From Corynebacterium poyangense (GTDB lineage: Bacteria > Actinomycetota > Actinomycetes > Mycobacteriales > Mycobacteriaceae), in contig NZ_CP046884.1 in assembly GCF_014522205.1 (NCBI RefSeq), forward strand, positions 1,798,001 to 1,862,000: a DNA stretch of 64,000 nt. The letters are read 5' to 3'. Made by a program: the position numbers and the translations under genes. The notes beneath the pieces are model-generated. The model was not told the DNA's origin, did not search any database, and was given only the letters and a program-made list of their open reading frames with translations. How positions within the stretch are numbered: position 1 is the first letter of the stretch; each line of letters opens with the position of its first letter. Of the stretch, positions 49,518 through 64,000 are shown piece after piece.

Positions 49518-50216
49518 TCATTGCCTTAAACGACACTGATTTTTAGCTGCATCTAGCCATTCCCTGCGGGTAGCGACGGCGGGAACGTTGATGATCTCAG
49601 GACCGGTATCAGCTCCCCGACTGCGATGATAGATGCGTGCTCGTTGCGTCGAACCTAGTTCCTGGTTTGGGCGATAGACCGGCAAGAGGGTCAATATATC
49701 CATACTGCTGTTTCCCAGGTAGAAGGGGAAACTTGGAGTGAAGGCTTTTCGCCCCAGATAGGTGCTGAATTGTGGGTTTCTCAGCGCAGTGGCTACTTTA
49801 TCTGGATGATTCGGAGAGGTGACCTGGATCAGGAATTCTGCATCACTAAGGTAGGTTCGCTGGGAGATACTCGTAGAACCCTGCCCATCAGGAGTCAGTT
49901 TCAACATCTTGTCCGCAGGACGTTTACCCATTGCACCTAGAAGCCGTGATTTGAAAGCCATCTCGTCTTCATGGGGTGCGATGGTGTGAAAATCATCGAT
50001 GAGAGTTCCGGGGCGATCTACCCGTACTGAGAAGGTAAGTTGCTGGACCCAGTCTTCCCACTGTCCCCGCTTAAACCCACAGGCTCCGGCTACTAGCCCC
50101 TGGAGGGCAGTATAGGTAGGAACCGGCTCAGTTCGCACGAAATTACCTGTGATGGACGGTCCAGCCCATGATTGCACAGGACCCGCTAGCCGAATAAAAG
50201 TTGACTGTATCGTCAT
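49518..50216 (-). CDS. cas5e: Type I-E Cascade subunit Cas5e (CasD)
   Basis: This 232-residue RAMP protein binds the 5' handle of the crRNA at the base of Cascade. The N-terminus FIRLAGPVQSWAGPSITGNF and the region TYTALQGLVAGACGFKRGQW are typical of CasD, as is FTPSFPFYLGNSSMDI near 150. It is the last gene of the leftward cse1-cse2-cas7-cas5 operon. Confidence 0.87.
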   Translation of the reverse strand: MTIQSTFIRLAGPVQSWAGPSITGNFVRTEPVPTYTALQGLVAGACGFKRGQWEDWVQQLTFSVRVDRPGTLIDDFHTIAPHEDEMAFKSRLLGAMGKRPADKMLKLTPDGQGSTSISQRTYLSDAEFLIQVTSPNHPDKVATALRNPQFSTYLGRKAFTPSFPFYLGNSSMDILTLLPVYRPNQELGSTQRARIYHRSRGADTGPEIINVPAVATRREWLDAAKNQCRLRQ

Positions 50217-50230
50217 AAAACTTTCACCCT

Positions 50231-51298
50231 CTAGTTTTTCACCCAGAAAACTACCTGCTCAATGAGGTCATTCTTTGTACCGTGAGTAGCCCCTGGGAAC
50301 AGGTCCGCTAAGTCCGGATAGGTTCCAGCAACAACTTGGACAGCACCGAAATTATCCGGATCAAAGTCCCGAGCCGCCCGGTATTGGCGGTCAAGCTCAA
50401 CCATGGTGGGTTTCAGGTATCCGCCTTGGTCTTTGTCGGCTTGCACGGGAGCTTCAAAATCATAGGCGCACCGATAAGTTTGTTCCTCAGCTAGGATAAG
50501 CGCAGGTTGGACAAAGGGGGCTGTGGAACGCTGTTTACCACGAGGAAGACCATAGATAATGGCGTTGATTAAAGCTCGAATATTATCCGTACTGGCGTCA
50601 TCATCAAATCCAGTCCAGCTTTCTTTTAACTGTTCTTTGTCGATGGTGACGGTTCGATAAAAAACTCCGGTGGTGTATTGCGCAACACCAAGGAACGTCG
50701 CCCCTGTGTCATGATTCTTCTCTCGAATATCATCCACCGTAGAGAAGTAATCTGTCGCAATAACTACCCCGTGAGTAGTCACAGCTGGCGACACACTCAA
50801 AGCTGCCTCGGTCCCTTTTTGCGGCGCCGCAGCGAACATCCGCCCAAATGACGCAATCGCTAAAGACCCGGTTTTCCCTTCGGCAATAAACTCACCCTGA
50901 GAGCTGTCTCCTGCAACCTGTGCTGCAGCAACCTCTAATTCCTCAGCGCTAAGCCAAATAGAGCGATCTGACTCACGATCCCCTTCTTTAACTTTGTCTT
51001 TCTTGGTCAGCGTTCCCACTAACTTTTTCGCAGCTTTAGCCAGATCTTTTTCATTGCTATCAGGAGCTATTTCTCTAGCCCTTTCAATTATCGCTTCGCT
51101 CAGTTTCCCCGACCGCACTGAGATGTCCTGGCTCGCCTCTTCATACTTAGTCCGGATTCCCTTTTTAATAGATTGAGAACTAAGCAAGGCACACGTTGCT
51201 CCACCACGGCGAACATTCTTCGGAGTTCCGGCATCATCTCGGTTGAGGTTGGAATACGGGACAGAAGCAACGATGTGCAGAGTTAAGTGACGGGACAT
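50231..51298 (-). CDS. cas7e: Type I-E Cascade backbone Cas7e (CasC/Cse4)
   Basis: This 355-residue protein forms the helical backbone on the crRNA. Family signs are LHIVASVPYSNLNRDDAGTP near the start, RRGGATCALLSSQSIKKGIR near 30, IASFGRMFAA near 152 and the central DDAST/ARD-type regions. It lies 12 bases downstream of cse2 and 14 before cas5e. Confidence 0.9.
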   Translation of the reverse strand: MSRHLTLHIVASVPYSNLNRDDAGTPKNVRRGGATCALLSSQSIKKGIRTKYEEASQDISVRSGKLSEAIIERAREIAPDSNEKDLAKAAKKLVGTLTKKDKVKEGDRESDRSIWLSAEELEVAAAQVAGDSSQGEFIAEGKTGSLAIASFGRMFAAAPQKGTEAALSVSPAVTTHGVVIATDYFSTVDDIREKNHDTGATFLGVAQYTTGVFYRTVTIDKEQLKESWTGFDDDASTDNIRALINAIIYGLPRGKQRSTAPFVQPALILAEEQTYRCAYDFEAPVQADKDQGGYLKPTMVELDRQYRAARDFDPDNFGAVQVVAGTYPDLADLFPGATHGTKNDLIEQVVFWVKN

Positions 51299-51310
51299 GA
51301 AATTCTCCTT

Positions 51311-51949
51311 CTAGATATTGTTTTCGTGATCAGTTTCAGCACTATTGTCAAAATCAAAACTGTAGAAATCGCGCAAAATACTCAGCCGATGTCGAGTTGA
51401 GGAATCACTATAGCCATTCCCCCAGTACCAAAAAACGCTAGTAAATCGATAGGGGTCAAGGGGAACAAAAATCCGCTTGGACTGCGCAAAAACTATGATG
51501 CGACGAATATTCGCTATAGCTTCCTCAACGTCTTGAGTGTGGAGGTATTTCAAACGCGAAGGAATCATGTCATTTGGTTCGCGTTGATTAACCTCAGGAT
51601 GATGCGCTAATCGTTGACACCATTTCCCCAAAGATAGCCCTCGGCCAGAATCTTCCCCCTGAGCGTCCTCGTCCTCAGATTGGGTTGCCGCCGAGAATTC
51701 TGTTTTTCCTCGCGCAAACACATTCGGATATTCAGCAATAATCGCCGCACATCGCAGGAGCGCTACGCGTTGATTCTCCGAGCACTTCTCCGGCAAGTAA
51801 GGCAAAACATAAGAATAGGCTCGGTATTCAGTTTGAAGAGTATTGCCGGCTCGAATAGCTGAGCGTTGTGCGCGATAGTGATCCGACGCCGCGTTTCGCG
51901 ACAACTCATTAATCAGCCCTGCCCAGGAGGGTCGTCGTGTATCGGCCAT
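51311..51949 (-). CDS. cse2: Type I-E Cascade small subunit Cse2 (CasB)
   Basis: This 212-residue, mainly helical protein stabilises the R-loop as a dimer in Cascade. It shows WAGLINELSRNAASDHYRA near the start and GLSLGKWCQRLAHHPEVNQR in the middle, typical for CasB. Its ATG overlaps the cse1 stop (TAATG), so translation is coupled. Confidence 0.83.
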   Translation of the reverse strand: MADTRRPSWAGLINELSRNAASDHYRAQRSAIRAGNTLQTEYRAYSYVLPYLPEKCSENQRVALLRCAAIIAEYPNVFARGKTEFSAATQSEDEDAQGEDSGRGLSLGKWCQRLAHHPEVNQREPNDMIPSRLKYLHTQDVEEAIANIRRIIVFAQSKRIFVPLDPYRFTSVFWYWGNGYSDSSTRHRLSILRDFYSFDFDNSAETDHENNI

Positions 51950-53598
51950 TATCTAGGTTCGCTTTCTTGATTGGGAACATGCTGGCATTGAAGTAAGTAG
52001 TGAATGCGCTGTTGAACTTCGAAGTTTCGGCTCGGGTTCTGGGTCAAATATGGTCCGATCACCGAATCAAATGCTCGTTGCGCTGCCTTGATAGCATCAC
52101 CTCGTAGGCTAAGGAGATCTTTCCGCGCACGCCTACTACGTTGTCGTCCAGTTTCACTTTCTCCTTCCGCAGAATTAAGAGAAGATGCGAAGTAATCAAT
52201 GAAATCCTCATACACTGGGGTGATCATTCTCCAGAAAACCTGATTCATCCGTGATTCTGCAGAAAACAAATGGGGGTATCCAGGTTTATCCGATCCCTTA
52301 TTAAACTGATCGTGTTTTTTAGCTTTATCGTATTTACGTCTTGGCCGGAATGGGCCCATAACAATGCTATAGAGAGTCAAAATGAAGTCGGCTTGGAGCC
52401 TGATCCTTTCCTGCAATCTCGCATCCACATCAAAGACCCACCGTTGTGTGTCCGGTTGAGTAATTACCGATTCCCGAATAATCGGGGAATGAGAAGTGCC
52501 GGCAATTTGATGGCGAATGAACAACAATGAGTCTTTCGAAAAATCCGGAGAGAGGACGGTGTCTCCGAAGGTATTTCGAAGAGAGTTGCTTAAATCCTCA
52601 TGCGCCCATTCAACAGCTAACTCGGTGAGATCTCGGCTGAGGTCTAAGCGTCGTGCTTTTAAGGACCCGTGCGAATCCGGCAGGTAGAAGTAGAAAGGAT
52701 CACGGGCGTTTCGAGTGTCCCACCATTGCTTACGCTCTTCAGAGGTCGTACCCATTTCAGGCAAAAACCAGTTCTCCGGGATCCCACCGATTCTTACCCC
52801 CACAAGAGTATTGCCCTCCCAGGCACACGCCGCTGTGTTCGAGCTCCACGTTGCCGACCAGAGAGGATGAATTTCTCCTCCGCTAAGACGAGACTTCTCT
52901 CCTGTCCTATCCGCCCAGGCCGGCAACCCTGACTGACGTACCCAGTCTCGGGGAATAGATTTCAGCAGTGATTCCAAGGGTGACCGGGAGTGAATAAGAA
53001 ATTCCGTAGCCGTATTACCGTCACCTAAATACCGGAAACCAGGAGATCCATTAAGGCATTTAGAACCATCATATCTAGAGTTACCACTAGGAAAGTAGGT
53101 GGCAAAAACCATCAAGGCTAGGGCACCATCCACACCATCTAAAGTCTCGGGTTTGAGCCTCTGCAAATCCCAATACGTCTGAGAGTATTCACCCGGAACG
53201 GTCGGAGATAATTTCCATGCTGGGTTTTTCCCCGGCCCGACGTGACGGGTTGTATCCTTAGGTCCCAGCGGAGGAAGAACCGGGCGTTGGAAGAACGGAT
53301 AATCCCCTTCCTGAAGGTCTAATCCCGGAGCAAGACGATTTAATACCTCTGCGATCACATCCTGAGAAATAGGTTGCGCATCACCATCGGCTACACGATG
53401 TGGAATTTTCGGGTCTATTTGGATCGCCACAGCTACGGTTGCAGCCAGAAGTCGCCATGTTGCACCGAATTCATAACCAGGCATTATGAGATCCAACATC
53501 AGGTTCGGATCAGCGGCACGCGCCAAGAAAGCTTCGACGCTCAACTGTCCCTGATTCGTTCTCACAAGAGAGAGATCCTGAAAGACATTGATACTCAT
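51949..53598 (-). CDS. cse1: Type I-E Cascade large subunit Cse1 (CasA/Cas8e)
   Basis: This 549-residue protein recognises the PAM and recruits Cas3. It begins MSINVFQDLSLVRTNQGQLS (ATG at 53598, GAGGA upstream); the longer frame to 53730 runs into the repeat-bearing promoter region and is not used. Further family-like parts are YPFFQRPVLPPLGPK near 110, NSRYDGSKCLNGSPG near 180 and a C-terminal four-helix region. It is the first gene of the leftward cas operon, divergent from cas6e. Confidence 0.88.
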   Translation of the reverse strand: MSINVFQDLSLVRTNQGQLSVEAFLARAADPNLMLDLIMPGYEFGATWRLLAATVAVAIQIDPKIPHRVADGDAQPISQDVIAEVLNRLAPGLDLQEGDYPFFQRPVLPPLGPKDTTRHVGPGKNPAWKLSPTVPGEYSQTYWDLQRLKPETLDGVDGALALMVFATYFPSGNSRYDGSKCLNGSPGFRYLGDGNTATEFLIHSRSPLESLLKSIPRDWVRQSGLPAWADRTGEKSRLSGGEIHPLWSATWSSNTAACAWEGNTLVGVRIGGIPENWFLPEMGTTSEERKQWWDTRNARDPFYFYLPDSHGSLKARRLDLSRDLTELAVEWAHEDLSNSLRNTFGDTVLSPDFSKDSLLFIRHQIAGTSHSPIIRESVITQPDTQRWVFDVDARLQERIRLQADFILTLYSIVMGPFRPRRKYDKAKKHDQFNKGSDKPGYPHLFSAESRMNQVFWRMITPVYEDFIDYFASSLNSAEGESETGRQRSRRARKDLLSLRGDAIKAAQRAFDSVIGPYLTQNPSRNFEVQQRIHYLLQCQHVPNQESEPR

Positions 53599-53700
53599 TG
53601 CACTATCCTCAAGCTCATACTTTGTTAGAATAGCAAAAGCTAGCCAGGATGCAACTGTAACTACTACAGTAGAAATTATTAAACTGAAACGTAAGGAGGG

Positions 53701-53772
53701 CTCCTCCCGCAGTCGCGGGAAAATCCACAACTTTAACTCCTACAGGAACTACCTCCACAGCACAGTGGAGAA
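53701..53772 (-). repeat. Pair of type I-E CRISPR-like repeats in the divergent cas promoter region
   Basis: On the plus strand two hairpin units occur, 53701-53723 (CTCCTCCCGC-AGTC-GCGGGA, then AAA) and 53750-53772 (TACCTCCAC-N6-GTGGAGAA), 49 bases apart. Read on the minus strand, the second becomes GTTCTCCAC...GTGGAGGTAGTTCC, which has the length and hairpin-plus-8-nt-handle form of a type I-E repeat. The 26-bp segment between them resembles the inter-repeat segments of the array at 62063-62244 (shared TGTAGGRGTTA and GATTT on the minus strand). The position between cse1 and cas6e suggests a crRNA-like regulatory element. Confidence 0.65.
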
Positions 53773-53820
53773 CAGTTGCCTTAGTGCCCTCGTGATTGAT
53801 GATAAGGAGGAACAAAACCC

Positions 53821-54549
53821 ATGCCAACTTCACCAAGGTTTTGGACTAGATTTCCCGCCCATTTAGCCGTCAACAAAAAGGTCATCTTATCTGAGCAGCA
53901 GAACAAGAACCTCGCTCAAAAGACTAGATGGAGTATTGATGACCCAAAATTCCGCCATCGCGCTGTCATGGGGTTATTTGGAGATATTGATTCTCAATCA
54001 CCTCGCTCGGAATTAAGTATCCTCTACCGCTTTGAAACACTGCCCGGGCAAGCACCGTATTTCCTCGTTCAATCCACCCAAGCACCGGTACATCACCTCA
54101 ATCTTGACGGGGTGCAAGTACGGAAAGTGGACATCACTGCCCCTGCCGAGGGCACGGAAGTAGAGTTCCGGATCACAGTAAACGCAGTAGCAAGGCGAAG
54201 TGTTGAGATCCCGGACGGTTCAAAAGAGAACACTAAGCGTAAAGAAGTCATCCGCCCGCTGTCTATGGATCCGCTACCTGATGGAAGTGGGGATTCTGAA
54301 GTAAGTGCCTGGCTCAAAGCTAAACTCTCACCAGCGCTAGATAACATGACCATTAATCGGCACGGACGCCAAGTATTGGGAGCTAATCGCCGAGGAGCAC
54401 ACAAGAATACCCGAGTTGTCCAGGTTGATATGTTCGACGGCGTCGCTACCGTTAAGGATTCAGATGCTCTCCACACTCTTCTCCTGAATGGTCTTGGCCG
54501 GGCAAAATCCTATGGTTGCGGCCTTTTAACTATAAGACCCCTCGGCTAG
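53821..54549 (+). CDS. cas6e: Type I-E crRNA endonuclease Cas6e (CasE)
   Basis: This 242-residue RAMP endonuclease cuts CRISPR transcripts at the 3' base of the repeat hairpin and stays bound. Visible parts are the N-terminal RHRAVMGLFGDIDSQSPRS with the histidine region near residue 43, and the glycine-rich loop LLNGLGRAKSYGCGLLTIRP at the C-terminus, which contacts RNA. AAGGAGG precedes the ATG. It is the first gene of the rightward operon. Confidence 0.87.
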   Translation: MPTSPRFWTRFPAHLAVNKKVILSEQQNKNLAQKTRWSIDDPKFRHRAVMGLFGDIDSQSPRSELSILYRFETLPGQAPYFLVQSTQAPVHHLNLDGVQVRKVDITAPAEGTEVEFRITVNAVARRSVEIPDGSKENTKRKEVIRPLSMDPLPDGSGDSEVSAWLKAKLSPALDNMTINRHGRQVLGANRRGAHKNTRVVQVDMFDGVATVKDSDALHTLLLNGLGRAKSYGCGLLTIRPLG

Positions 54550-54564
54550 GGCTGAACGGAGCTT

Positions 54565-56733
54565 GTGATGAACACCCCTCATCTCCACCGGTATCTTTGG
54601 GCCAAGTTTGATGGAGCTTCACAACCCTATCTGCTGCTCGCCCATCTTTTAGATACCGCTACCGTTATATCTTTGCTGTACCAACATTGGCTAAGAAAGG
54701 GTTTGCGGGATTTACTTGCTAAAGAATTAGGCTCTCGCGCCCCCAGTATTTTATCCTTCCTCGGAGGGATCCATGACCTGGGAAAAGCTAATCCGTATTT
54801 TCAAGCCCAGCCTCGTCAACATAGTGCACAGTGGAAAGCTTTCCGCACAGAACTTAGCGGGCACGGCTTGGACATTTCTGCTGATCTCACTGAGATATAT
54901 ATCGATCATCAAGAACTACGCCGCCATGAAAACATCTCGGTGTGTGGACTTAACTGGAGTGTTCACCAAGAAGACAAAATCACAACATCGTGGGCACCTA
55001 TGGCAGTTATCGCCCACCACGGAAAATTCTCTATCCCAAAGATTTTCGATGGCCTCATTAGCGAAGATCTAGAAGACAGCCTCGCAGAAACATGGCCGTT
55101 ATTGCACGAACGCATAATCGATGAAGTTTTAAAAGCCACCAAATTAGATTCCTCAGACGATATTCCTCCGGTATCTCCTGAAGTTGGAATTTTAATCAGT
55201 GGATTATTAGTTTTGGCAGACCGGATAGCCTCGCAGGCGGAATTAGTTGAATCAGGTCTGGAACAGCTCCAAACAGAAGCATTAGATCTGAATGCCCCTG
55301 AGAAATGGGCTGCGGTTAGGAAAGATGAATGTTTGGCGCTAATTGAAAAAACTGTCGGGATTTACCACCCTTGGCCAGAGGAAGAGTTAGCCGATAGCGC
55401 AATTCTTGGGGGATATCCTCCGCGTTTTACGCAGGAAAAAGCAGTGGGGGTTGGTGACGGGTTGTGGAACGTTATGGCGCCTACTGGATCAGGGAAAACC
55501 GAAGCTGCGTTGCTGCGGCACTCTCGACGAAATGAGCGCTTGATCTTTTTACTTCCTACCCAGGCTACAACCAACGCGATTATGCGTCGGATCCAAAAGG
55601 CTTTCCAGGGGACTCACAACGTTGCGGCGCTTGCTCATAGTCTTGCCGTTACTGAGGACTTTTATCAACAGCCTGCCACTGTCAGCGAGGGAACACGGGA
55701 GTATAACGACCACGATGACCACTATCAAGACACCGGAGGTCTGTATCCCACCGAATTTATCCGGAGCGGAGCGTCTCGACTCTTAGCCCCGGTATGCGTT
55801 GGCACGGTTGATCAAGCATTGATGGGGTCTTTGCCTTCAAAATTCAATCACTTGCGATTATTAGCACTCGCAAATGCTCACATTGTCATTGATGAGGTCC
55901 ACACCTTGGATCAGTATCAAGCGGAGCTGATGGAGATCTTGGTGAAGTGGTGGTCAGCTACGAACACACCGGTGACGTTTTTGACTGCTACTATGCCGGC
56001 CTGGCAGCGGGACAAGTTTTCCCGAGCATATACCGGTTTTAGTAGCACCAGCCCAGCGCAATTCCCTACGGTCGAAGAATGGTCGGCTTGTGGCAACTCT
56101 GCTATTGATATAGCGGATATACCTACGGAGTGTTATGCCATCCCCTTTCACTTGGATAGAGGAGAAGAGAAGAATTTAGTGCGACGTCATGCGGAGTGGG
56201 TGAGAGCGCAAAGGAAAAAATTCCCTGATGCCCGGATCGGGGTTATTTGTAATACCGTCGACCGAGCTCAGCAGCTTGCTGTGGAGCTTGAGGGTTTTCA
56301 CCCCGTGGTGCTGCATTCTCGGATGACAGCTGAACATCGCAACCAATCAGCATTAACTCTAGAGAAAACAATTGGGAAAGGTGGCCGAACTAGAAATTGC
56401 TTGGTTATTGGAACTCAAGCAATCGAAGCCAGTTTAGACATTGATCTTGATTTATTAAGAACAGAGTTATGCCCGGCACCGTCATTGATTCAACGCGCCG
56501 GACGGTTGTGGCGGAGGCAAGACCCCGAGCGAAACCTCCGCGTCCCCGGCATGATGAACAAAGAACTTAATATCTCGGTCATCAAACATCCGACGCCTGG
56601 CGCCACGCTTCCCTACCTTCGTTCTTTGCTGCAGCGAGTGGAAAACTGGCTTGAAAGACGAAAAGAAATAAAGTTTCCGACGATATTCAGGATTTCATTG
56701 ATCAGACCACACCAAGCCTCGAAGCTCTCATAG
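54565..56733 (+). CDS. cas3: Cas3 nuclease-helicase, N-terminal part (frameshifted gene)
   Basis: This 722-residue open frame holds the HD nuclease domain (GGIHDLGKANPYFQ near residue 66, AVIAHHGKFS near 150) and the helicase core (APTGSGKTEAALLRHS near 308, VIDEVHTLDQYQ near 440, LTATMPAW near 473, GTQAIEASLDIDL near 617, QRAGRLWRRQ near 642). After ERRKEI the frame runs into an unrelated tail and stops. The -1 frame instead continues as KVSDDIQDFIDQTTPSLEAL and joins the following C-terminal fragment. The full protein would be about 885 residues, the normal Cas3 length. So cas3 is split by a one-base deletion or an assembly error near 56655-56672. Confidence 0.85.
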   Translation: MMNTPHLHRYLWAKFDGASQPYLLLAHLLDTATVISLLYQHWLRKGLRDLLAKELGSRAPSILSFLGGIHDLGKANPYFQAQPRQHSAQWKAFRTELSGHGLDISADLTEIYIDHQELRRHENISVCGLNWSVHQEDKITTSWAPMAVIAHHGKFSIPKIFDGLISEDLEDSLAETWPLLHERIIDEVLKATKLDSSDDIPPVSPEVGILISGLLVLADRIASQAELVESGLEQLQTEALDLNAPEKWAAVRKDECLALIEKTVGIYHPWPEEELADSAILGGYPPRFTQEKAVGVGDGLWNVMAPTGSGKTEAALLRHSRRNERLIFLLPTQATTNAIMRRIQKAFQGTHNVAALAHSLAVTEDFYQQPATVSEGTREYNDHDDHYQDTGGLYPTEFIRSGASRLLAPVCVGTVDQALMGSLPSKFNHLRLLALANAHIVIDEVHTLDQYQAELMEILVKWWSATNTPVTFLTATMPAWQRDKFSRAYTGFSSTSPAQFPTVEEWSACGNSAIDIADIPTECYAIPFHLDRGEEKNLVRRHAEWVRAQRKKFPDARIGVICNTVDRAQQLAVELEGFHPVVLHSRMTAEHRNQSALTLEKTIGKGGRTRNCLVIGTQAIEASLDIDLDLLRTELCPAPSLIQRAGRLWRRQDPERNLRVPGMMNKELNISVIKHPTPGATLPYLRSLLQRVENWLERRKEIKFPTIFRISLIRPHQASKLS

Positions 56734-57227
56734 CAGAGATCGATGATGACGCTGTTGCGTCTGAGTTGAATTCGGATCTCCAGGACAAAATAGCGGAGTC
56801 TTCACAAACCATCACCAGCCGTTCTCAAGCAAGGAATGTCCGTATCAAGCTTGACGCCGTGCTTCAGGACGATGCGAAAGTTGAAAGCCTTGTTGGTTTA
56901 ACATCACAAGACTCTGTGGAAGAAAGCTCCACTCGTCTCATTGATCGGCCAAGTATTCGGGTGATTCTGTGTGACTCTAGCGGGGAAATTCCAGGAGCAT
57001 GGGAGGCCGATCCCACAACGCTCATAGCAATCCGTGGTAGAGATACCACCCAGTTACGTCGGGCATTACAAGGATCTATGTCCATACCTGACACCTCTAG
57101 ATTCTCTGGTTTGAAAGACCGAACTATTTCTTTGGGTGATGCGAAAAGCCTGTTGCGCGGATACTATGCCCTGCCGATGAATCCCGGAGAATATGACCGA
57201 GTAGTAGGACTGTTGGGTGAAGGCTAA
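56660..57227 (+). pseudogene. cas3: Cas3 C-terminal domain, separated by the frameshift
   Basis: This stretch encodes the Cas3 C-terminal domain. From about 56673 the frame reads VSDDIQDFIDQTTPSLEAL and continues without a stop to 57227. The first in-frame ATG/TTG-type start inside it is TTG at 56766, giving 153 residues. The region RPSIRVILCDSSGEIPGAWE and the C-terminal YYALPMNPGEYDRVVGLLGE fit the accessory CTD of Cas3. Its stop overlaps the cas1 ATG. Without fusion to the helicase it is unlikely to work normally. Confidence 0.75.
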
Positions 57228-58180
57228 TGGCTTATTCCGAAGAAGCACTGGCGTTTTCTACGATCTCCCCTTCCGAACAAATTCGTCTAGAAGATCGAGT
57301 TTCTTATTTGTATGTGGAGTATTGCTTGATTCGTCAAGACCGAACCGGGGTGATTGCTATTAGCCGTGGAGATGAACGCGCCCCTGAACCGGTGAATGAA
57401 CTACCTACAAAAACCCGGATTCAATTGCCCGTGGGTGGGTTGGCGACACTTATTTTAGGGCCCGGAACCAGCATTAGTCAGCCGGCGGCGACGTCTTGTG
57501 CTCGCTCAGGTGTATCGGTTCTGTTTAGCGGAAGCGGAGGAATACAGTCTTATTGTTTAGCTACCCCGCTGACCTCATCGGCTCGGTGGGCAATAGCCCA
57601 GGCTCGGCTAGTTGCTAATGAGGCGCGTCAACGAGACGCGGCGAGAATATTGTACCGAAAACAATTAGGTATTGACGATGTTCCGATGTCCTCTATTGCC
57701 GCTATGAGAGGAATCGAGGGCAGAATGATGCGAGATTTGTACAAAAAATTAGCGACAAAGCATCATATAAAAGGGTTTCGACGCGATACTAATAGCCCCG
57801 ATTATGTTAATTCCAATTTAAATCTTGCTAATTACATTTTATATGGATGTGCGGCTTCTGTGTGCTCTGTTTTAGGGATAAATCCCGCGCTCGGAATAAT
57901 ACATCGTGGAAACTCGCGATCTTTGCTGTTTGATTTAGCGGATCTCTATAAGAGAGAAATTACGATTCCGTTGGCTTTTAGAATGGACAAAGAACACGGA
58001 GGTGCTAGTGAGCTCCGAAAAGAACTGAGGCGATGTATTCAGCGACGCAAAATTCTAGAAGAGATGATGAAAATTATGATGTCAATACTTGAACCACACC
58101 TGCCGAAGCGAGATGATGACCGACTTATTGGTGGAATGAATCACGAGGTTCCTGGGCACACCCAATACGGCAGCGGATAA
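57227..58180 (+). CDS. cas1: CRISPR adaptation integrase Cas1, type I-E
   Basis: This 317-residue integrase adds new spacers together with Cas2. The metal ligands are present: glutamate in MRGIEGRMMRDLYKKLA near residue 165, histidine in GIIHRGNSRSLLFDLADLYK near 225, and the aspartates in that same helix. It looks intact. The ATG overlaps the end of the Cas3 C-terminal frame. Confidence 0.9.
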   Translation: MAYSEEALAFSTISPSEQIRLEDRVSYLYVEYCLIRQDRTGVIAISRGDERAPEPVNELPTKTRIQLPVGGLATLILGPGTSISQPAATSCARSGVSVLFSGSGGIQSYCLATPLTSSARWAIAQARLVANEARQRDAARILYRKQLGIDDVPMSSIAAMRGIEGRMMRDLYKKLATKHHIKGFRRDTNSPDYVNSNLNLANYILYGCAASVCSVLGINPALGIIHRGNSRSLLFDLADLYKREITIPLAFRMDKEHGGASELRKELRRCIQRRKILEEMMKIMMSILEPHLPKRDDDRLIGGMNHEVPGHTQYGSG

Positions 58181-58184
58181 TCCC

Positions 58185-58547
58185 ATGTTTGCGGTACTAC
58201 AGGCTCATTCCCTACCTGAGCATCTCCACGGATACCTCAGCCGGTTCTTTTCAGAAGCTGACACCGGGCTTTATGTGGGAGTGATTTCTCGGGCGGTACT
58301 TGAGCAACTCTGGGAACGATGCCTTAGCGCCGAGCTAGAAGGGTCTATTACCTTGATTCATAGTCAGTTTGACAGTGAGCAAGGCTTCTCAATAAGAACC
58401 ACAGGACCGCAGCGGCGCCCGGTCTTAGATTTTGATGGCCTAACCTTAACGACTCGCGGCCGGGTAGAAAATGGCCGCGTATGGGAACCACGAAACGAAG
58501 AAGAAATGAGGGATTTACCCACGACACAGAAGGATTTTAATTCTTAA
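58185..58547 (+). CDS. cas2: CRISPR adaptation protein Cas2, type I-E
   Basis: This 120-residue protein of the Cas2e (CT1978) type reads LPEHLHGYLSRFFSEADTGL near the start, VISRAVLEQLWERCL near 33 and FSIRTTGPQRRPVLDFDGL near 67. It forms the Cas1-Cas2 integration complex. It starts 4 bases after cas1 and is the last cas gene. No ordinary CRISPR array follows it in the next 3.5 kb. Confidence 0.88.
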   Translation: MFAVLQAHSLPEHLHGYLSRFFSEADTGLYVGVISRAVLEQLWERCLSAELEGSITLIHSQFDSEQGFSIRTTGPQRRPVLDFDGLTLTTRGRVENGRVWEPRNEEEMRDLPTTQKDFNS

Positions 58548-58757
58548 TCTAAGTTTTCATTTCTTAATTCTAGACTTTCTATGAGCGAGCAAATCTGATA
58601 CGTAGACAGAACCTGATACTGACCAATAGCAGCCGGCTACCGGCCTACTCAAGAGAGTTAACTTTTCCAGATAACTGAATATGCGATATGAAGCATCTCC
58701 GCAAGGGTGTGGTTGCGATAATTATATTTTTTCTTAAACAAAAAATACGGTTCTTTT

Positions 58758-59072
58758 TCATGATGAACTTCGATAAAAAAGTGTTACCCTACCATTCCGG
58801 CGTTTGGATTTTTCTGTTTGTTTTTCCGCCGCGGTTTTATTTGCTTCCTCGATTTCTCGGTACTTCGCAGCCAATGGGCGTAGCTCGTTACGCTGAGTCC
58901 GGTATTTCGCTGCTTCCTGACGGGCTTTTGTTAGAGCATTTTTATAATCCTCCAACGTCATCTCCCCATCACCAGCCTTAGCCTCTTTGCGGTCCTAGCT
59001 GGCTTCTTGGCCACCAGGATCAGCAGGGTTAGTGGCTGTGCTTTCAGCATCATTATGTGTAGGGGTGTCCAT
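58758..59072 (-). pseudogene. Phage scaffold-like protein remnant with internal amber stop
   Basis: From an ATG at 59072 with an excellent ribosome site (GGGAGGATAACT), the frame reads MDTPTHNDAESTATNPADPG and on to QEAS. It meets TAG (58995-58997) and continues in the same frame as DRKEAKAGDGEMTLEDYKNA and a long charged coiled-coil segment (RQEAAKYRTQRNELRPLAAK). This acidic start plus coiled coil is the layout of actinophage capsid scaffold proteins. The 3' end (after EKQTEKSK) is probably truncated by a rearrangement. Confidence 0.6.
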
Positions 59073-59204
59073 AGTTATCCTCCCGGGATATTTAAGGTTC
59101 GGTAGAAAAGATCTGGCCTCCTGTGCCATACTTAAGACCTGTCAGCTATCCCCTGACATTGACCCTCGCCGCCCTCCTGGCAGAGTCTTTCCTCGTTATA
59201 AGGG

Positions 59205-59238
59205 CATAAGAAAACCCCGCTGCCTTAACGGCACGGGG
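59205..59238 (-). terminator. Minus-strand terminator
   Basis: CCCCG-C-TGCC (59215-59224) pairs with GGCA-CGGGG (59230-59238) with one bulged base, and on the minus strand TTTTCTTAT follows. It ends the transcript of the two small genes at 59254-59778. Confidence 0.65.
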
Positions 59239-59253
59239 TGAAACAAGGATTTT

Positions 59254-59445
59254 TTAACCCCAGAAATATTCTGGCTGTTTAGCGTCTTTGTATTGTTCTT
59301 TACGATCAGTCGCCTCAAGAAAAGCCAATCCGCACATGATGTCGGTATAATCTTCTGCTTCTTCGCGACTCATATCCCATTGTTCCATGAATAGACGCAC
59401 ATGCTCATCAAACGGGAGACTACCTTTACCAGTGTGCATCTTCAT
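59254..59445 (-). CDS. Hypothetical small acidic protein
   Basis: This 63-residue protein reads MKMHTGKGSLPFDEHVRLFM and then a run of acidic and aromatic residues ending EYFWG. It starts 3 bases after the gene at 59449 and is followed by a terminator, so the pair looks like one transcript. No family is recognised; a phage origin is likely from context. Confidence 0.5.
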   Translation of the reverse strand: MKMHTGKGSLPFDEHVRLFMEQWDMSREEAEDYTDIMCGLAFLEATDRKEQYKDAKQPEYFWG

Positions 59446-59448
59446 GGT

Positions 59449-59778
59449 TTAAGGATAGATCTTGGAGAACAGTTCATCAAGAGCTGGAACAATATTGTCC
59501 GCAAAATCCTTCTCATCCCATTGGATATAGGCCCACATTCCGTCTCCCTCCTTTTGCAGAGCAATCACCTGGTTAATCCGTTTCTCACCGGTTTTCACCC
59601 CCACCCACTGCGCATAAGAACGAGCAAAAAGCTCTTTATCGGATAGCAAATACCGGTGATTTTGGATTTCCTCTACCGTATCGGGTTTATACGCTTCCAA
59701 GGCTTTCACCGTCTTGGACTGTCGTACTTTATGAAAATAAGCATCAAACACCTTTGGATGCTGAGGAATTTTTATCAC
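59449..59778 (-). CDS. Phage head-protein-like fragment
   Basis: This 109-residue frame starts with GTG. Its second half, LLSDKELFARSYAQWVGVKT followed by W-DEKDFADNIVPALDELF, resembles the C-terminal polyvalent-type domain often found at the end of phage minor head (MuF-type) proteins. It is probably a leftover C-terminus rather than a whole protein. No ribosome site stands out and the upstream 280 bp are AT-rich. Confidence 0.45.
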   Translation of the reverse strand: MIKIPQHPKVFDAYFHKVRQSKTVKALEAYKPDTVEEIQNHRYLLSDKELFARSYAQWVGVKTGEKRINQVIALQKEGDGMWAYIQWDEKDFADNIVPALDELFSKIYP

Positions 59779-60057
59779 AATAAAAATGAAATTAGCTCAA
59801 CTACATGCGTAAAAGTTTTGAATACAAATAATAGCGCATTATGGGAGAAAAAATATTGCGGTCTAATATGTTTTGCGTAATACCCTTCGTTCACTTGCGC
59901 CTGGTTAGCTAGAAAACTTACGATGTCAATAACAGAAAATTATTCAATTTTCTTTATAAAAATCTAACTGGTAAATTTGGCGTTAAGACAGTATCTTTTG
60001 GTTGAACTATTGTCCTGGTTAACCGTCGCGCACCTAATAAGGAGGTGTTTAAAGTCC
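59779..60057. other. AT-rich intergenic stretch
   Basis: About 280 bases, clearly richer in A/T than the host genes around, without a credible open frame. It should hold the promoter of the gene at 60058, but no consensus -35/-10 pair stands out. Confidence 0.4.
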
Positions 60058-60405
60058 ATGTCAAACGTTGGTCAGTGGAAAGATACACAAATTGTTGTGG
60101 ATCGAATTAAAAATCAAATCGCAGAGGAAAGGGACTGGGTTCACCTAGAGTTTGCGATAGATTATTTCGGTGTTGAGGACAGTAGGAGGCTGGATATCAG
60201 GGAGTGGGAGGAAGCTATACGACGACTTCTTTCCACTGGGGAGTTGTTCTTGCGGTTCGTACATCCCACAAATTCGCCTGATCCGATTGAAAAGAACCCG
60301 GTCGAGCCGGGAGTAACTCCGCGTCAGCTTGCTGTGAGAATTGCTACTGATCCTGATCTGTATCTTCTGTGTCTAATGCTAGACGCGCATAAGATCGAGT
60401 CTTGA
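60058..60405 (+). CDS. Hypothetical protein of mobile-element region
   Basis: This 115-residue protein begins MSNVGQWKDTQIVVDRIKNQ. The ATG at 60058 has AAGGAGGTG upstream, which fixes the start against the longer frame from 59977. It contains REWEEAIRRLLSTGELFLRF and ends LCLMLDAHKIES. No family is recognised. A strong terminator follows 20 bases after the stop, so it is a single-gene unit. Confidence 0.65.
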   Translation: MSNVGQWKDTQIVVDRIKNQIAEERDWVHLEFAIDYFGVEDSRRLDIREWEEAIRRLLSTGELFLRFVHPTNSPDPIEKNPVEPGVTPRQLAVRIATDPDLYLLCLMLDAHKIES

Positions 60406-60425
60406 TCTTAGCTATGGCCTTTATT

Positions 60426-60460
60426 CCCCCTGTGCTGATCTTGCGCAGGGGGTTGAGGTT
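60426..60460 (+). terminator. Plus-strand terminator
   Basis: CCCCCTGTGC (60426-60435) pairs perfectly with GCGCAGGGGG (60443-60452) around a 7-base loop; TTGAGGTTTATT follows. It ends the gene at 60058. Confidence 0.7.
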
Positions 60461-60469
60461 TATTGGTAG

Positions 60470-60643
60470 TTATTTGCCGAAATGGTCGGTGGCTTTCCAG
60501 TCCACCTTGCCATCAGGCTACTTCTCGACGGATGTACCTTCCGCATCTTCGTGTGATTCCTCAGCCTGGTCGGTGGCAGTGTTTGCACCACCCTCGACGC
60601 CTTCGATGAAACGTAGCCAGTGTGGTTGTGTGAACGAGTGTTT
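60470..60643 (-). pseudogene. Second scaffold-like remnant with an amber stop and no start codon
   Basis: On the minus strand, after AAAGGAG, the frame reads KHSFTQPHWLRFIEGVEGGA and then an acidic stretch to EGTSVEK. It meets TAG (60518-60520), continues PDGKVDWKATDHFGK and stops. The aromatic WLRF start followed by an acidic low-complexity part is common at the N-terminus of actinophage scaffold proteins. There is no ATG, GTG or TTG at the right place, so it is a remnant. Confidence 0.45.
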
Positions 60644-60725
60644 CTCCTTTTACAGGGGTTTCCGCCCGTTTCGGGCATGACAAAACCGCCGGCAAGAACA
60701 CTGTGGTTCTTAACAGGGGGTTTAG

Positions 60726-60778
60726 TGCGCCGCCGGGACTCGAACCCGGAGAAGGCCAACCAAAAAACTTGGCGGCGC
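60726..60778 (-). other. tRNA-like 3' end (T arm and acceptor) without D and anticodon arms
   Basis: On the minus strand a perfect T arm, CCGGG-TTCGAGT-CCCGG, is followed by CGGCGC-A, which can pair with GCGCCG 5' of a short CCAA/TTGG hairpin. The whole is 53 nt, too short for a tRNA. It may be the tRNA 3' end carried at a phage attachment site, a decayed tRNA, or a tmRNA-like fragment. A small hairpin AAGAAC/GTTCTT lies at 60694-60711. Confidence 0.4.
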
Positions 60779-60842
60779 GTTACACAAAAACCGCCACCAC
60801 AAGGTGACGTTTCAACTGCTATGTCAACGAATGGAAGATCAA

Positions 60843-61067
60843 CTAAGAATCGATATAGCCTTCATCTTCCAACTCATCAAGTAAAGGGAGAAGAGGCTCA
60901 TTCTCCTTCAGCCACTCCGCAACAGCCTTCTTCTTCACGCTCAACGGCTCACCAATTACATCTAACTCCTCCAGCAGGATAGGCAGACAATTCGGCCGCC
61001 CTTGTCTATCCATTGGGGTTAGATCATCAGAGAACCTATCCAGACTGGACGGTTTTGTCGCTTCCAT
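60843..61067 (-). CDS. Hypothetical small protein of phage region
   Basis: This is a 74-residue protein from the ATG at 61067 (GGAGGT five bases upstream): MEATKPSSLDRFSDDLTPMD, then LPILLEELDVIGEPLSVKKK and an acidic C-terminus DELEDEGYIDS. It is in frame with, and was read as part of, a longer frame to 61355, but the strong ribosome site marks its own start. It overlaps the end of the frameshifted gene upstream. The function is unknown. Confidence 0.6.
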   Translation of the reverse strand: MEATKPSSLDRFSDDLTPMDRQGRPNCLPILLEELDVIGEPLSVKKKAVAEWLKENEPLLPLLDELEDEGYIDS

Positions 61068-61355
61068 TGCTGACCTCCACATCAATGATCGGCAACTCAC
61101 CACGCTGAACACGGTAGTTTTTATATTAGTACCTGGAGAGACTAGAAATTCTTCCCGAAAAGCCTTACTCTTATCCCCATTCGTCGGCATCCAAATACCA
61201 GGCGCATCTTTCGTACCGTAACCCCGGAGTATCATCCCAGTCTTACACTCTCCCTCAGCTACTACCTGAGAAGCACTAACCTTATAGGCTCTGAAGGTGG
61301 CTATATCTCCGCATCCGCGAGCAGCCATATCCGAGTCCCTAGTTGTCAGCTTCAT
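61036..61355 (-). pseudogene. Frameshifted hypothetical phage gene
   Basis: The frame starts MKLTTRDSDMAARGCGDIAT (ATG at 61355) and runs to SPGTNIK. A run of five A follows. In the other frame the sequence continues as NYRVQRGELPIIDVEVSNGS and DKTVQSG with a stop at 61036-61038, overlapping the next gene in a normal way. One extra A would restore a 106-residue protein. It is either a real frameshift or a homopolymer error. No family is recognised. Confidence 0.5.
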
Positions 61356-61489
61356 TGCCTAGCCTGAGAAGCGATGGGAAGGGCTATGGTCAGAGTAATA
61401 CTCGCCGCCCCTATAGACCACAACCAGGCGGGCCAACTGAAACCAATGATCGCGGAGAGCGCTAGCACCCTAAACAATGGCATCGTCAT
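61352..61489 (-). CDS. Small membrane protein
   Basis: This 45-residue frame reads MTMPLFRVLALSAIIGFSWP and then a second hydrophobic stretch to ALPIASQARQ. The TGA overlaps the ATG of the next gene (ATGA), a sign of real coding. Two hydrophobic segments suggest a small membrane protein; nothing else can be said. Confidence 0.4.
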   Translation of the reverse strand: MTMPLFRVLALSAIIGFSWPAWLWSIGAASITLTIALPIASQARQ

Positions 61490-62030
61490 GAGGGAAAAGA
61501 TTCATAGCAAACCAGTTTCTGACACTGTGTGCAGTGGATCTTGACAGAACCCCGCCCCTCGTTTCAGAAAACCTCCGCTGTTTACCGCAAACGCGGAATA
61601 GCATTTTTTGACAAGGGCATTTGTCGTTTCCGCAGGTCACAGCGTTACACTAATCCCATTAATTCCCCAAAATGCACGGGTTTACAACTTTTTTGCGGGA
61701 CCGATGCGGGACCGACAGGCCCTAGCCCCGGTTCTCATCCCGCCCAAAACCGGGGGTAAGCACACGCGGATCAAGTACACACCCCCGTCGCTCACGCCAC
61801 CCCCGATAGTTGCACGACTCCACATTTTCGGTAAAGTAAATCACTGGATGGACGCGCAACCTGCACCGCTACGCGCCCAGCCAAAACATTAACCCAAAGC
61901 CCTGAGAGCTTCATCCAACAAACAAACAAGCTCACCAGCCAGGGCTTTAATAACAACAGCCCGGCCAGACGAAGAGTCGCTAAACCCAACGTCAGGCCGG
62001 GTTTAGCTTTGCTCCGGCCTGAAATGAAAG
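61490..62030. other. Non-coding stretch rich in inverted repeats
   Basis: About 540 bases without a credible gene. It contains a tandem GCGGGACCGA-type 11-mer (about 61695-61716), a long inverted repeat CCCCGGTT (61726-61733) / AACCGGGG (61748-61755), and two overlapping alternative hairpins at 61981-62021. A minus-strand frame of about 34 codons ending near 61890 (GRAVVIKALAGELVCLLDEA) looks protein-like but has no start codon. The content fits a replication, transfer or control region of a mobile element. Confidence 0.4.
61981..62021. promoter_or_regulatory. Two mutually exclusive hairpins
   Basis: TAAACCC (61981-61987) can pair with GGGTTTA (61999-62005), and CAGGCCGG (61993-62000) can pair with CCGGCCTG (62014-62021). 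The two stems share bases 61999-62000, so only one can form fully. Neither is followed by a T-run on either strand. It lies just beyond the terminator of the repeat array. Confidence 0.35.
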
Positions 62031-62057
62031 AAAACCCCCTTTCAAGAGGAAAGGGGG
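62026..62057 (-). terminator. Minus-strand terminator directly after the repeat array
   Basis: CCCCCTTTC (62035-62043) pairs perfectly with GAAAGGGGG (62049-62057) around a 5-base loop. On the minus strand TTTTCTTTC follows the stem. It begins 5 bases after the last repeat, so a minus-strand transcript of the array would end here. Confidence 0.75.
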
Positions 62058-62062
62058 GTTGA

Positions 62063-62244
62063 TACCTCCGCTTAGCGCGGAGAAAGTAGCGTGGGGATTA
62101 GTACGGTACAAGAAATACCTCCGCCTAGCGCGGAGAAGATAAGTCCGGGATTAACCCGATGCTGGAAATACCTCCACGCAAACGCGGAGAAATAAAATCG
62201 GGTAGCTAACCCCTACAAGAACTACCTCCGCTTAGCGCGGAGAA
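62063..62244 (-). CRISPR. Four-repeat type I-E CRISPR-like mini-array with short, related spacers
   Basis: Repeats lie at 62063-62084, 62116-62137, 62169-62191 and 62223-62244 (plus strand TACCTCCGC...GCGGAGAA; the third is CTCCACGC...). The core repeat is 22-23 bp and the gaps are 31 bp, period 53-54. On the minus strand each is TTCTCCGCG...GCGGAGGTA(G/T)TTCY (last one degenerate), which matches the type I-E plan: GTTC, a GC hairpin, then an 8-nt handle. Counting the handle, the true gaps are only about 24 bp, 7-8 shorter than type I-E spacers. The gaps resemble each other (GGTTA/TAATCCC core), unlike normal spacers. A terminator follows. It may be a mobile-element mini-array or a repeat decoy. 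Confidence 0.6.
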
Positions 62245-62276
62245 GTGTCTCACGGCTACCCATTACCTTAGCACCC

Positions 62277-62447
62277 ATGAAGCTCGATATCTACGATTCT
62301 CGCGCATTTTTTTCTGGCACCCCCTCTGAGCTGCTAAAAGAAGCGCTAACTCTCCTTGGCGAAAAGGATCCCACGCCCCGGCTTCTTGCGGGCCTTTATG
62401 CGACCATTTTCGACTGCGATCCGCTTGATATAAGGGTGGAAAACTAG
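62277..62447 (+). CDS. Hypothetical small protein next to the repeat array
   Basis: This is a 56-residue frame, MKLDIYDSRAFFSGTPSELL at the start and ending DCDPLDIRVEN. It starts 33 bases after the last repeat, on the opposite strand to the array transcript, so the array promoter would have to lie inside or beyond it. No clear ribosome site is seen (ACCTTAGCACCC). The amino-acid content looks natural. No family is recognised. Confidence 0.45.
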   Translation: MKLDIYDSRAFFSGTPSELLKEALTLLGEKDPTPRLLAGLYATIFDCDPLDIRVEN

Positions 62448-62497
62448 CCCTAAATTACCCCCGATCTTTTGTAAACCGCCAGGTTAAAGCATATCGA

Positions 62498-62572
62498 CTA
62501 CCCCCGTTTGAGTTACTGTATTCCATTTTTCGAGGGTGTCGTATATAGTCATAAGTGTCAGCAAGAAAGAAA
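62498..62572 (+). promoter_or_regulatory. Duplicated promoter/leader, copy 1
   Basis: CTACCCCCGTTTGAGT (62498-62513), then TATTCCA, a -10-like TATAGT (62544-62549) and the leader AAGTGTCAGCAAGAAAGAAA (62553-62572) precede the gene at 62583. The same elements in the same order precede the gene at 63202. Shared regulation of the two genes is likely. Confidence 0.6.
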
Positions 62573-62582
62573 GGAAAAGAAA

Positions 62583-63053
62583 ATGACCACCGCAACCACC
62601 GCCCAGATCAATTACATCAACTCCTTACGAGCAAGCCGCACCTTGCCAGACATGGACATCGCGGCCAAGAACATCGAGCTCTGCCTCGACAGCGTTGCCA
62701 GAAACGCGGTCGCTTCACAAGCAACCGCCATCCGCGCACAGCTCAAAGAAGAAGGCCTTCGCCCCCTTTGTGATAGAGAGCGCTACGACGCACGCTTCGA
62801 AGAGCTGTACGCCCCGGTTTTCGATGCCGCAAAAGACACCATGCGCGCTCGGCTGGAGAGCCTGGCTGCTGAGGAAGCTAAGAAAATCACTTTCGCTATG
62901 ACCGTAGACCTTGGCACCATTACCAAGGCTGAGGCTTCCAAGATCATTGGTATGCTCAAGGCGCCGGTAATGATCTTCGCCGTCAATGGTGAACAGCTTG
63001 GAGTGCGGGGCATCCTTTTTGGCATTGACCCTCAGCTCTTTACCCTTGATTAA
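62583..63053 (+). CDS. Hypothetical protein of mobile element
   Basis: This 156-residue protein has the ATG at 62583, with AAGGAAAAG upstream. It reads MTTATTAQINYINSLRASRT, then a helical region (IELCLDSVARNAVASQATAI) and a C-terminal part GTITKAEASKIIGMLKAPVM. The 'ITKAEASKIIGML' helix resembles short segments near the ends of single-strand-handling or replication-associated accessory proteins, but I cannot assign a family. It is preceded by the promoter/leader shared with the next gene. Confidence 0.65.
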   Translation: MTTATTAQINYINSLRASRTLPDMDIAAKNIELCLDSVARNAVASQATAIRAQLKEEGLRPLCDRERYDARFEELYAPVFDAAKDTMRARLESLAAEEAKKITFAMTVDLGTITKAEASKIIGMLKAPVMIFAVNGEQLGVRGILFGIDPQLFTLD

Positions 63054-63106
63054 CCCTCATTGGCTACCCCCGCTCATTTATAACAATGCAGTTCAGGGGG
63101 TATACG

Positions 63107-63180
63107 CTACCCCCGTTTGAGTCAATATATTCCACTAATCCTCACCCTGTGTTATATTAAAAGTGTCAGCAAGAAAGAAA
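63107..63180 (+). promoter_or_regulatory. Duplicated promoter/leader, copy 2
   Basis: CTACCCCCGTTTGAGT (63107-63122), TATTCCA, a -10-like TATATT (63153-63158) and AAGTGTCAGCAAGAAAGAAA (63161-63180) repeat the arrangement at 62498-62572. A partial CTACCCCCG also occurs at 63064 and a TTACCCCCG at 62456, so ACCCCCG may be a repressor or activator half-site. Confidence 0.6.
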
Positions 63181-63201
63181 CAAACTGAAAAGGAAAAGAA
63201 A

Positions 63202-63576
63202 ATGGCACTCGCAAAACTCTCCCAGATCCGCAAGACCGAGCAAGGCTACATCTTCACCGCGACCTTCACCGATGAATTCGCTTCCAATGAAGAGTACACC
63301 GTGACCTACCACACCGATGAGGATGGTGCCGGGCTGTGGGTAGAGTACCAAGAGCACGTCAGCAATGACCCCGAAACCGGGTTGGCGCAGTATGCGACCG
63401 GTCTTCGCCAAATCCTTGGTGCCACCCAGTTCGATCTTACCGTTTCGGATAAGCGCGGCACCGTGTTGGCTTACCTGCTTGCCGATGACCTCGGTTTTGA
63501 ATCTTTCCTTACCTCCGAGGGCCGATCCGCTTCCAAGGCCGCTGCTAAGGAATATGCCAAGCATCAAGGGATCTGA
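63202..63576 (+). CDS. Hypothetical protein of mobile element
   Basis: This 124-residue acidic protein (ATG at 63202, AAAGGAAAAG upstream) reads MALAKLSQIRKTEQGYIFTA at the start, followed by EEYTVTYHTDEDGAGLWVEY and an end rich in alanine and lysine. It may be a small beta-barrel. High acidity and a shared leader with the gene at 62583 suggest related roles. No family is recognised; a DNA-mimic function would be a guess. Confidence 0.65.
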   Translation: MALAKLSQIRKTEQGYIFTATFTDEFASNEEYTVTYHTDEDGAGLWVEYQEHVSNDPETGLAQYATGLRQILGATQFDLTVSDKRGTVLAYLLADDLGFESFLTSEGRSASKAAAKEYAKHQGI

Positions 63577-63625
63577 ACCTTTCCCCGGCTATATATAGGG
63601 CCGGGGTTCATAATAAGGGGAATTT

Positions 63626-64000
63626 ATGGAAATAATTACGAAGCCGGAAAAGGACCCGGAAACCGGGTGGTGGCAATGGAAAGTCGGAGAAACCACATAC
63701 CGGACTGACACTCGAGGACAAGGGTTATGGGAATGGATCGCGGATCCTGAAATTGTTGAAGTGTATTCCGGCCCTACCCCTATGATCTGGCGGCAAATTC
63801 GCGGAACCGGCCAATTCGCCCTCCCCAACCGGGACAAGCACCAATCGGTGGTCATGAGATGGCTAGGCGATACCCGAGGATGGAGAGAATACGCTGCGAG
63901 GAAGCACCTACGCCCCGATGATGTTATAGGCTGCTACCAGTACTATTTGGAATGGTTTGAAGCCCAAAAGGTTAAATTTTCAGAAGATTTGGCTTCTATT
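63626..64000 (+). CDS. Hypothetical protein (cut by the window end)
   Basis: From the ATG at 63626 (AAGGGG upstream) the frame is open for 125 codons to the right edge. It reads MEIITKPEKDPETGWWQWKV, then RTDTRGQGLWEWIADPEIVE, and later VVMRWLGDTRGWREYAARKH. The many tryptophans are notable. It lies 49 bases after the previous gene and could share its transcript. No family is recognised. Confidence 0.55.
   Translation, partial: MEIITKPEKDPETGWWQWKVGETTYRTDTRGQGLWEWIADPEIVEVYSGPTPMIWRQIRGTGQFALPNRDKHQSVVMRWLGDTRGWREYAARKHLRPDDVIGCYQYYLEWFEAQKVKFSEDLASI

Follow-up and report, generated by a model that had tools for sequence, protein, structure and literature searches.

The phage-borne array and its surroundings

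The window, by which we mean the whole analysed stretch of 64,000 nucleotides (G000:C1:1798001-1862000 of a 2.618 Mb genome), carries on its minus strand a short array of CRISPR-like repeats at 62031-62242, in which four hairpins stand around three spacers. In the order of the transcript these are R4 (62226-62242, CTCCGC-GCTAA-GCGGAG), followed by an 8-nt 5' handle of the CreR type (62218-62225, GTAGTTCT) and the guide S1 (62192-62217, beginning TGTAGGGGTTAG); R3 (62172-62189) and the spacer S2 (62138-62163); R2 (62119-62135) and the spacer S3 (62085-62110); and the last hairpin, R1 (62066-62082), which is adjoined by an intrinsic terminator (62031-62060). Successive hairpins are 53, 54 and 53 bp apart, and by arithmetic the spacers measure about 23 nt, against 32 nt in the main array of the host. 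The array is the sole row of repeats that TRF reports in the window (score 144), and its RNA fold beats all of 200 shuffles (z -5.04).

The preliminary description of this DNA had noted four minus-strand hairpins resembling type I-E repeats, and these are real (62066-62242), but some of its details have to be adjusted. The CTCCGC/GCGGAG stem is found in every repeat except R3, which reads CTCCGC/GTGGAG and contains one G-U pair, and the handle-like 8 nt that were said to follow each repeat are present after three of the four (GTAGTTCT, GTATTTCC and GTATTTCT), the fourth being followed by GTATCAAC. The terminator is there as well, with a stem of nine pairs from 62057 and then TTTTCTTT, but its distance to the last hairpin is 5-8 nt rather than a fixed 5, depending on the point from which the stem is counted (62057 or 62060). 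No Rfam family matches at gathering scores anywhere in the window, and below those scores there are three weak matches in 57000-64000. A promoter scan of 61900-62500 gave no sigma-70-like promoter; a TAnnnT box can be seen by eye slightly upstream of the arrays that we inspected. As one part of the overall explanation preferred below, we find it reasonably probable that the array is a phage-borne mini-CRISPR, which would be transcribed from the minus strand as an RNA about 200-250 nt long.

The mobile-element setting and the distance of 3.5 kb from a type I-E cas locus were both correctly described, as cas2 ends at 58547 and phage genes lie to the right of the array. A 56-aa ORF without a family (62277-62447, plus strand) is divergent from the array, and small ORFs, none of which matches a family above cut-off, are followed by genes for a minor tail protein, a holin and an endolysin; more tail genes and an integrase were recognised from the ORFs by eye. 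No tRNA was detected at 58500-62500, and a left prophage boundary or att sites were not found. A leader (TACCCCCG...GTTTGAGT...TATTCCA) is duplicated upstream of two neighbouring phage ORFs, 62456-62609 and 63065-63228, which also share their start region. In searches for the unit, the array and its surroundings had no match in phage records and 62000-64000 had none in plasmids, and in a distant DNA search of phage records neither the cas8e-cas6e region nor the phage unit of a second genome, G036, had a match.

The CRISPR-Cas system of the host and its CreR-like unit

The type I-E cas locus occupies 49518-58547, with family scores below cut-off for cas8e and cse2. On the minus strand lies cas8e (51949-53598), whose ATG at 53598 was picked by eye from likeness to the protein of genome G068, and on the plus strand are cas6e (53821-54549), cas3 (54565-57227) and cas1 with cas2 (57227-58547). 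The cas3 gene is frameshifted: an open frame of 722 aa (54565-56733) comes to an end, and the C-terminal part is encoded in another one; in the seven other genomes (of 150) that match this C-terminal part, cas3 is a single open frame of 879-952 aa. Either true decay or an error of the assembly could account for the frameshift.

The main I-E array was found by a whole-genome search with the DNA of the phage array. It lies about 40 kb from the phage array, at 1899856-1903180, where 55 repeats were detected, 61-62 bp apart, with 54 spacers. Its repeat reads CAATTCTCCGCGCACGCGGAGGTATTTCC in crRNA sense, and the supposed relationship of the window hairpins to the host's own repeat is borne out over stem and flank: they match it in the stem, in the upstream TTCTCC and, for three of the four, in most of the handle, with one or two extra bases in the loop. 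Spacers 37-38 of the main array are duplicated as 41-42. Two stray repeats, one of them inverted, are situated between an integrase and the main array (G000:C1:1898074 and 1898959), and are perhaps rearranged remains of the array end. Five of the 54 spacers (four distinct: nos. 7, 33, 37=41 and 47) are perfect matches to the neighbouring prophage, and all of their protospacers are preceded on the 5' side by AC; six further spacers match it with one mismatch, four of these with AC. Since cas3 is interrupted here, the self-targeting in the window does not prove that an inhibitor is at work.

Cas-regulating RNAs (CreR) were reportedly described by Liu et al. in Cell Host Microbe in 2023. According to the available parts of two reviews, they are crRNA-like RNAs partly complementary to a cas promoter, with which the effector complex represses the cas genes, and have been reported for types I-B, I-E and V-A (PMC13131331, PMC12737573). 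They would keep cas expression low until it is needed and let it rise when Acr proteins strike, as stated in the accessible text of one of them (PMC12737573). Between cas8e and cas6e, the minus strand of the window holds a mini-array of a similar kind, which consists of a repeat hairpin (53753-53770), a handle GTAGTTCC with a guide that begins TGTAGGAGTTAAAGTTGTGG (53720-53752), and a second, degenerate hairpin (53706-53719). Upstream of cas8e, on the same strand, there is a site with the PAM TAC and then TGTAGTAGTTACAGTTG (53652-53671), and the ATG of cas8e lies 70 bp downstream of the start of this target. In type I-E systems every sixth guide position is unpaired (so positions 12 and 18), and when guides were scored against targets each sixth position was left out of the count. 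Scored in this way, the host guide TGTAGGAGTTAAAGTTG agrees with 53652-53668 at 15/15 positions behind the PAM TAC. From this match, the intergenic unit of the host probably acts as a CreR.

Comparable units occur elsewhere in the genus. A scan for short-spaced tandem units in 242 genomes gave matches in 46, with many matches also for a reversed-pattern control, and among the matches listed a hairpin could be seen by eye only in G000, G031, G036, G181 and G192, of which G192 seems to have its units within long arrays. The units of G031 and G181 are located between divergent cas8e and cas6e (genes identified by eye), and their guides match the region upstream of cas8e at 14/15 behind an AC PAM; the build of the host unit together with these promoter matches fits CreR as reviewed in the parts of PMC13131331 and PMC12737573 that are available. 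The CreR-like unit of G068 scores 13/15 against its own cas8e promoter. When hairpins were surveyed upstream of cas6e at 30 loci, with an over-strict procedure that recognised cas6e by motif in 11 of them, no clear CreR emerged, and another scan, over at least 120 stretches, gave no tandem hairpin among the matches listed.

Phage guides and cas promoters

The first unit of the phage array, with its handle and seed (GGAGGTAGTTCTTGTAGGGGTTAG), is identical to the host CreR-like unit at 21 of 24 positions. The handle reads GTAGTTC, compared with GTATTTC in the main array (GTATTTCC) and GTAGTTCC in the CreR-like unit, and S1 and the host guide have the same site and the same PAM. When the 11-nt seed of S1 was compared, with an AC PAM, to both strands of 125 kb, the best place was the CreR target (9/10) and the next best reached 8/10, and a relaxed motif, ACTGTAGNNGTTA, occurs at two places in the 2.6-Mb genome, one of which is the CreR target. 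Shuffled versions of S1 reached 9/10 in the cas8e promoter in 1 of 4000 trials, a figure that applies to S1 alone, one of three spacers. The only difference in the seed is at position 7, where a G-T wobble is possible. Past position 11 there is no match, and over 17 nt S1 scores 9/15 at the cas8e site but 11/15 at 55353 inside cas3, so that the argument for S1 depends on the seed.

The two other spacers contain self-complementary stretches and have no convincing target. Their seeds score 6/10 (S2) and 7/10 (S3) on the cas8e promoter; with one mismatch allowed, the S2 seed has five matches genome-wide, one of them the array itself, against six for a reversed control, and the S3 seed has none. 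A unit like S2 was matched in 21 of the 242 genomes with at most three mismatches, the array itself being the only match without mismatches and two others having two. The seeds of 11 guides were also tabulated against five cas8e promoters, and each of the five host guides was best on its own promoter (9-10/10). In the same table S1 scores 9/10 on the promoter of the window's genome (G000) and at most 6/10 on the others, and S2 and S3 fit none. The phage guide of G036 scores 9/10 on the promoter of G036 and 8/10 on that of G068, as does the host guide of G036, and the guide of a third phage group scores 9/10 on that of G068 and at most 6/10 on the others.

In G036, a phage array of two units with an adjoining terminator is found beside lysis genes, and its guide also occurs in the IMG/VR contigs L023 and L031. 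This guide (TATTTCATTGACTTGGAGTCACC) is identical to the host guide of G036 (TATTTCATTGAATTGGAACCACC) at 20 of 23 positions, the differences, by eye, being at 12, 18 and 19, and each of the two agrees with the cas8e promoter of G036 at 14/15 positions, behind the PAM AAC and 101 bp upstream of the ATG. None of 4000 shuffles of the phage guide reached its promoter score. The array is about 520 kb from this promoter, compared with 8.5 kb between array and target in the window. The cas genes of G036 are uninterrupted (cas3 875 aa; cas8e one frame across L202 and L251), and when its 30 spacers were compared with 68 kb, three matched perfectly, at 2091033 and 2097319 with an AC PAM and at 2085717 without AC; another matches with one mismatch behind AC and three with 3-6 mismatches. 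The three perfect protospacers lie 13-26 kb from the array, among phage replication, ParB-like and terminase genes. Self-targeting with uninterrupted cas genes is compatible with an inhibition of CRISPR in G036, and a different, protein Acr could also be the cause of this tolerance. An HTH protein encoded divergently from the G036 phage array (L192:8295-8843) is weakly Aca2/YdiL-like (E 0.0036, below cut-off); HTH proteins of this kind are often found beside acr genes.

Viral contigs were retained by eye (L020, L022-L025, L029 and L031), and viral matches to the guide patterns in L235-L246, L248 and L249 were dropped as no hairpin could be seen by eye. In the third group, the guide of L020, L029 and L247 (TGCTAAATTTTCGG) scores 12/15 on the cas8e promoter of G068, a score reached by none of 4000 shuffles, and the guide of L024 (TGTTACTTTTTCAG) scores 11/15, with a shuffle fraction of 0.0075 of 4000. 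The guide pattern of this group, with one mismatch allowed, is found in G068 alone among the 242 genomes. The phage DNA itself was not found in G068 and has, at E <=1e-20, matches only in G205 (two, at 69% over about 380 bp), so that G068 is only a stand-in for the host of this group. Against phage records, L247 gave only 81-bp matches, to Corynebacterium phages. Directly after the unit and its terminator, these phages encode a homologue of Cas6e (L029:13511-14206), which in L029 is recognised by Pfam CRISPR_assoc (E 2.5e-18) and as Cas6e by PADLOC, with 35.4 bits in NCBIfam, below the cut-off of 45.2. Its frame is whole in L020 and L029; in L247 the end of the locus apparently truncates it, and in L024 it is divided into two frames. 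Upstream of eight weak cas6e matches in the genomes (seven beside a better copy, that of G171 the sole one) there was no convincing mini-array.

Two further viral contigs can be mentioned here. In L025, with 70% GC, a pair of I-E-like hairpins is combined with a terminator-like stem in a similar build at 5100-5350, and L022 has, near 5653, one repeat of the type seen in the main array, next to an apparent 3' end of a tRNA or tmRNA gene, perhaps an attachment site.

Explanations and known systems

The explanation that we favour, with moderate confidence in the chain as a whole, is that the phage imitates the CreR of its host. Host Cas6e would process the transcript into small crRNA-like species whose 5' handle is normal, and the RNA of R4-S1, as an imitation of the host CreR, would be loaded into Cascade, pair through the seed at the place in the cas8e promoter that CreR targets, and add to the CreR repression of cas8e-cse2-cas7-cas5. 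All three units may in addition soak up Cas6e or Cascade. What the comparison of sequences establishes is the kinship of the repeats, the terminator, the periodic match of the host unit to the promoter, the 21/24 identity and the CreR-like guides of two further phage groups, while the CreR role of the host unit and the transcription, processing, loading, repression and benefit to the phage are steps that we infer. Taken as one joint claim, it seems fairly probable that phages have repeatedly taken over the autoregulatory guide of the host CRISPR system, that a viral CreR of this kind shuts down cas transcription via Cascade, and that it is an anti-CRISPR that acts by guide mimicry at the level of cas expression, to which one phage group adds a Cas6e of its own.

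The strongest alternative, which we nevertheless consider unlikely, is a sponge of the Racr type, where the repeat alone matters, the RNA sequesters Cas6e or Cas7 in complexes that are aberrant or have no target, and the spacers are uninformative. The window repeats do mimic that of the host, two of the three spacers are self-complementary in part and have no convincing target, and type I-E Racrs were tested in the work of which PMC10651486 is available in part. It leaves unexplained the CreR-type handle and seed of R4-S1, as well as the guide of G036 with its 20/23 identity to the host guide and its 14/15 match to the promoter, and a pure repeat decoy is disfavoured because a conserved guide would be needless for it. 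The preliminary description had proposed an RNA that occupies Cas6e and Cascade in non-productive complexes because its spacers are too short. The anti-CRISPR purpose is retained here, but short spacers are probably not the main mechanism, since the host-type CreR mini-arrays in cas loci are equally short-spaced (51 bp in the window, 50 bp in G031 and 49 bp in G181) and since the first phage guide retains the handle and seed of the host CreR-like unit. A sponge action can exist on top of the guide mimicry.

It is more doubtful still that the array is captured host CreR DNA in decay, functionless in the phage. S1 diverges past position 11, S2 and S3 are orphans, and the cas3 of the window is broken, all of which would suit decay, but three phage groups have preserved the repeat and the seed of the guide, with a terminator close to the final repeat (the terminators of the other groups as seen by eye), and two of the three differences in the G036 guide fall at non-pairing positions. 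An element acting at the DNA level for the divergent ORF at 62277, such as operators, iterons or a partition site, is very improbable: the 53-bp phasing corresponds to about five helical turns and a second palindrome can be seen by eye between the hairpins, but repeat, handle and first guide are modelled on the CRISPR repeat and the CreR-like unit of the host, and the unit ends in a terminator on the minus strand.

Least probable, and about equally so, are the two remaining readings. The spacers could aim host Cascade at related phages, and viral mini-arrays of this kind do exist, according to the accessible part of PMC11656645, but when viral contigs were scanned for exact matches to the three spacers, with every sixth position left free, 1, 4 and 5 chance-like matches resulted, all in metagenome contigs and only one of the ten with C at the PAM position (imperfect protospacers fall outside such an exact-match scan), and the spacers are about 23 nt instead of 32. 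As for an addiction module like CreTA or CrePA, in which the guide represses the promoter of a neighbouring phage toxin, crRNA-like antitoxins are known from the available text of PMC12737573, but the prophage has no seed site for S1 or S3 of at least 9/10 with an AC PAM (8/10 sites do occur, for S1 at 69035, 86132 and 93323 and for S3 at 86342, and S2 has 9/10 sites at window positions -5626 and 111980), and the tested ORFs near the array contain no toxin family.

If the imitation of CreR is real, the phage copy would turn a safety loop of the host against the host itself, escape would be hard for the host without losing its self-regulation, and a few hundred nucleotides would be all that the phage needs for it. 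Some phages, on this reading, may disarm CRISPR through a brake that belongs to the host. A comparison of phage repeat units with the cas promoters of the host would be a search rule for further RNA anti-CRISPRs, and would recover elements that a search for solitary repeats sets aside. In the open-access literature, as far as titles and the starts of abstracts go, we found no description of a phage-borne CreR.

Virus-borne mini-CRISPR arrays are said to have been described by Medvedeva et al. in 2019 as a part of inter-virus conflict. The window array resembles these in being carried by a virus and presumably using host Cas proteins, but its repeats are degenerate, its spacers short and its first guide directed towards a host cas promoter; theirs, according to the part of PMC11656645 that is available, have repeats identical to those of the host, and most of their spacers are directed at related viruses. 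With the Racrs it shares that a phage encodes it, that it mimics the repeat of the host and that its role is presumed to be anti-CRISPR. Racrs are, however, solitary repeat units, and SRUFinder excludes full matches that lie in clusters within 100 bp, whereas the window has four tandem units, and the phages two to four, with handles and a host-matching guide; RacrIF1 forms an aberrant complex of Cas6f and Cas7f because its RNA has no 5' handle, and the discussion, in the accessible text, allows that some predicted Racrs may function otherwise and that other repeat-like sequences repress transcription in a Cas-dependent manner (PMC10651486). The closest likeness is to CreR, as the window array is a crRNA-like unit with a guide on the repeat of the cognate system, and this guide is partly complementary to the cognate cas promoter beside a PAM, with 9/10 in the seed and 9/15 over 17 nt for S1 and 14/15 for the phage guide of G036, although S2 and S3 lack such complementarity. 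A known CreR serves its host at the cognate operon, while here the unit is in phage DNA, 8.5 kb or about 520 kb away, and the window array adds extra orphan units. As it is not placed in the cas locus, the phage array is best said to work like a host CreR, and not to be one.
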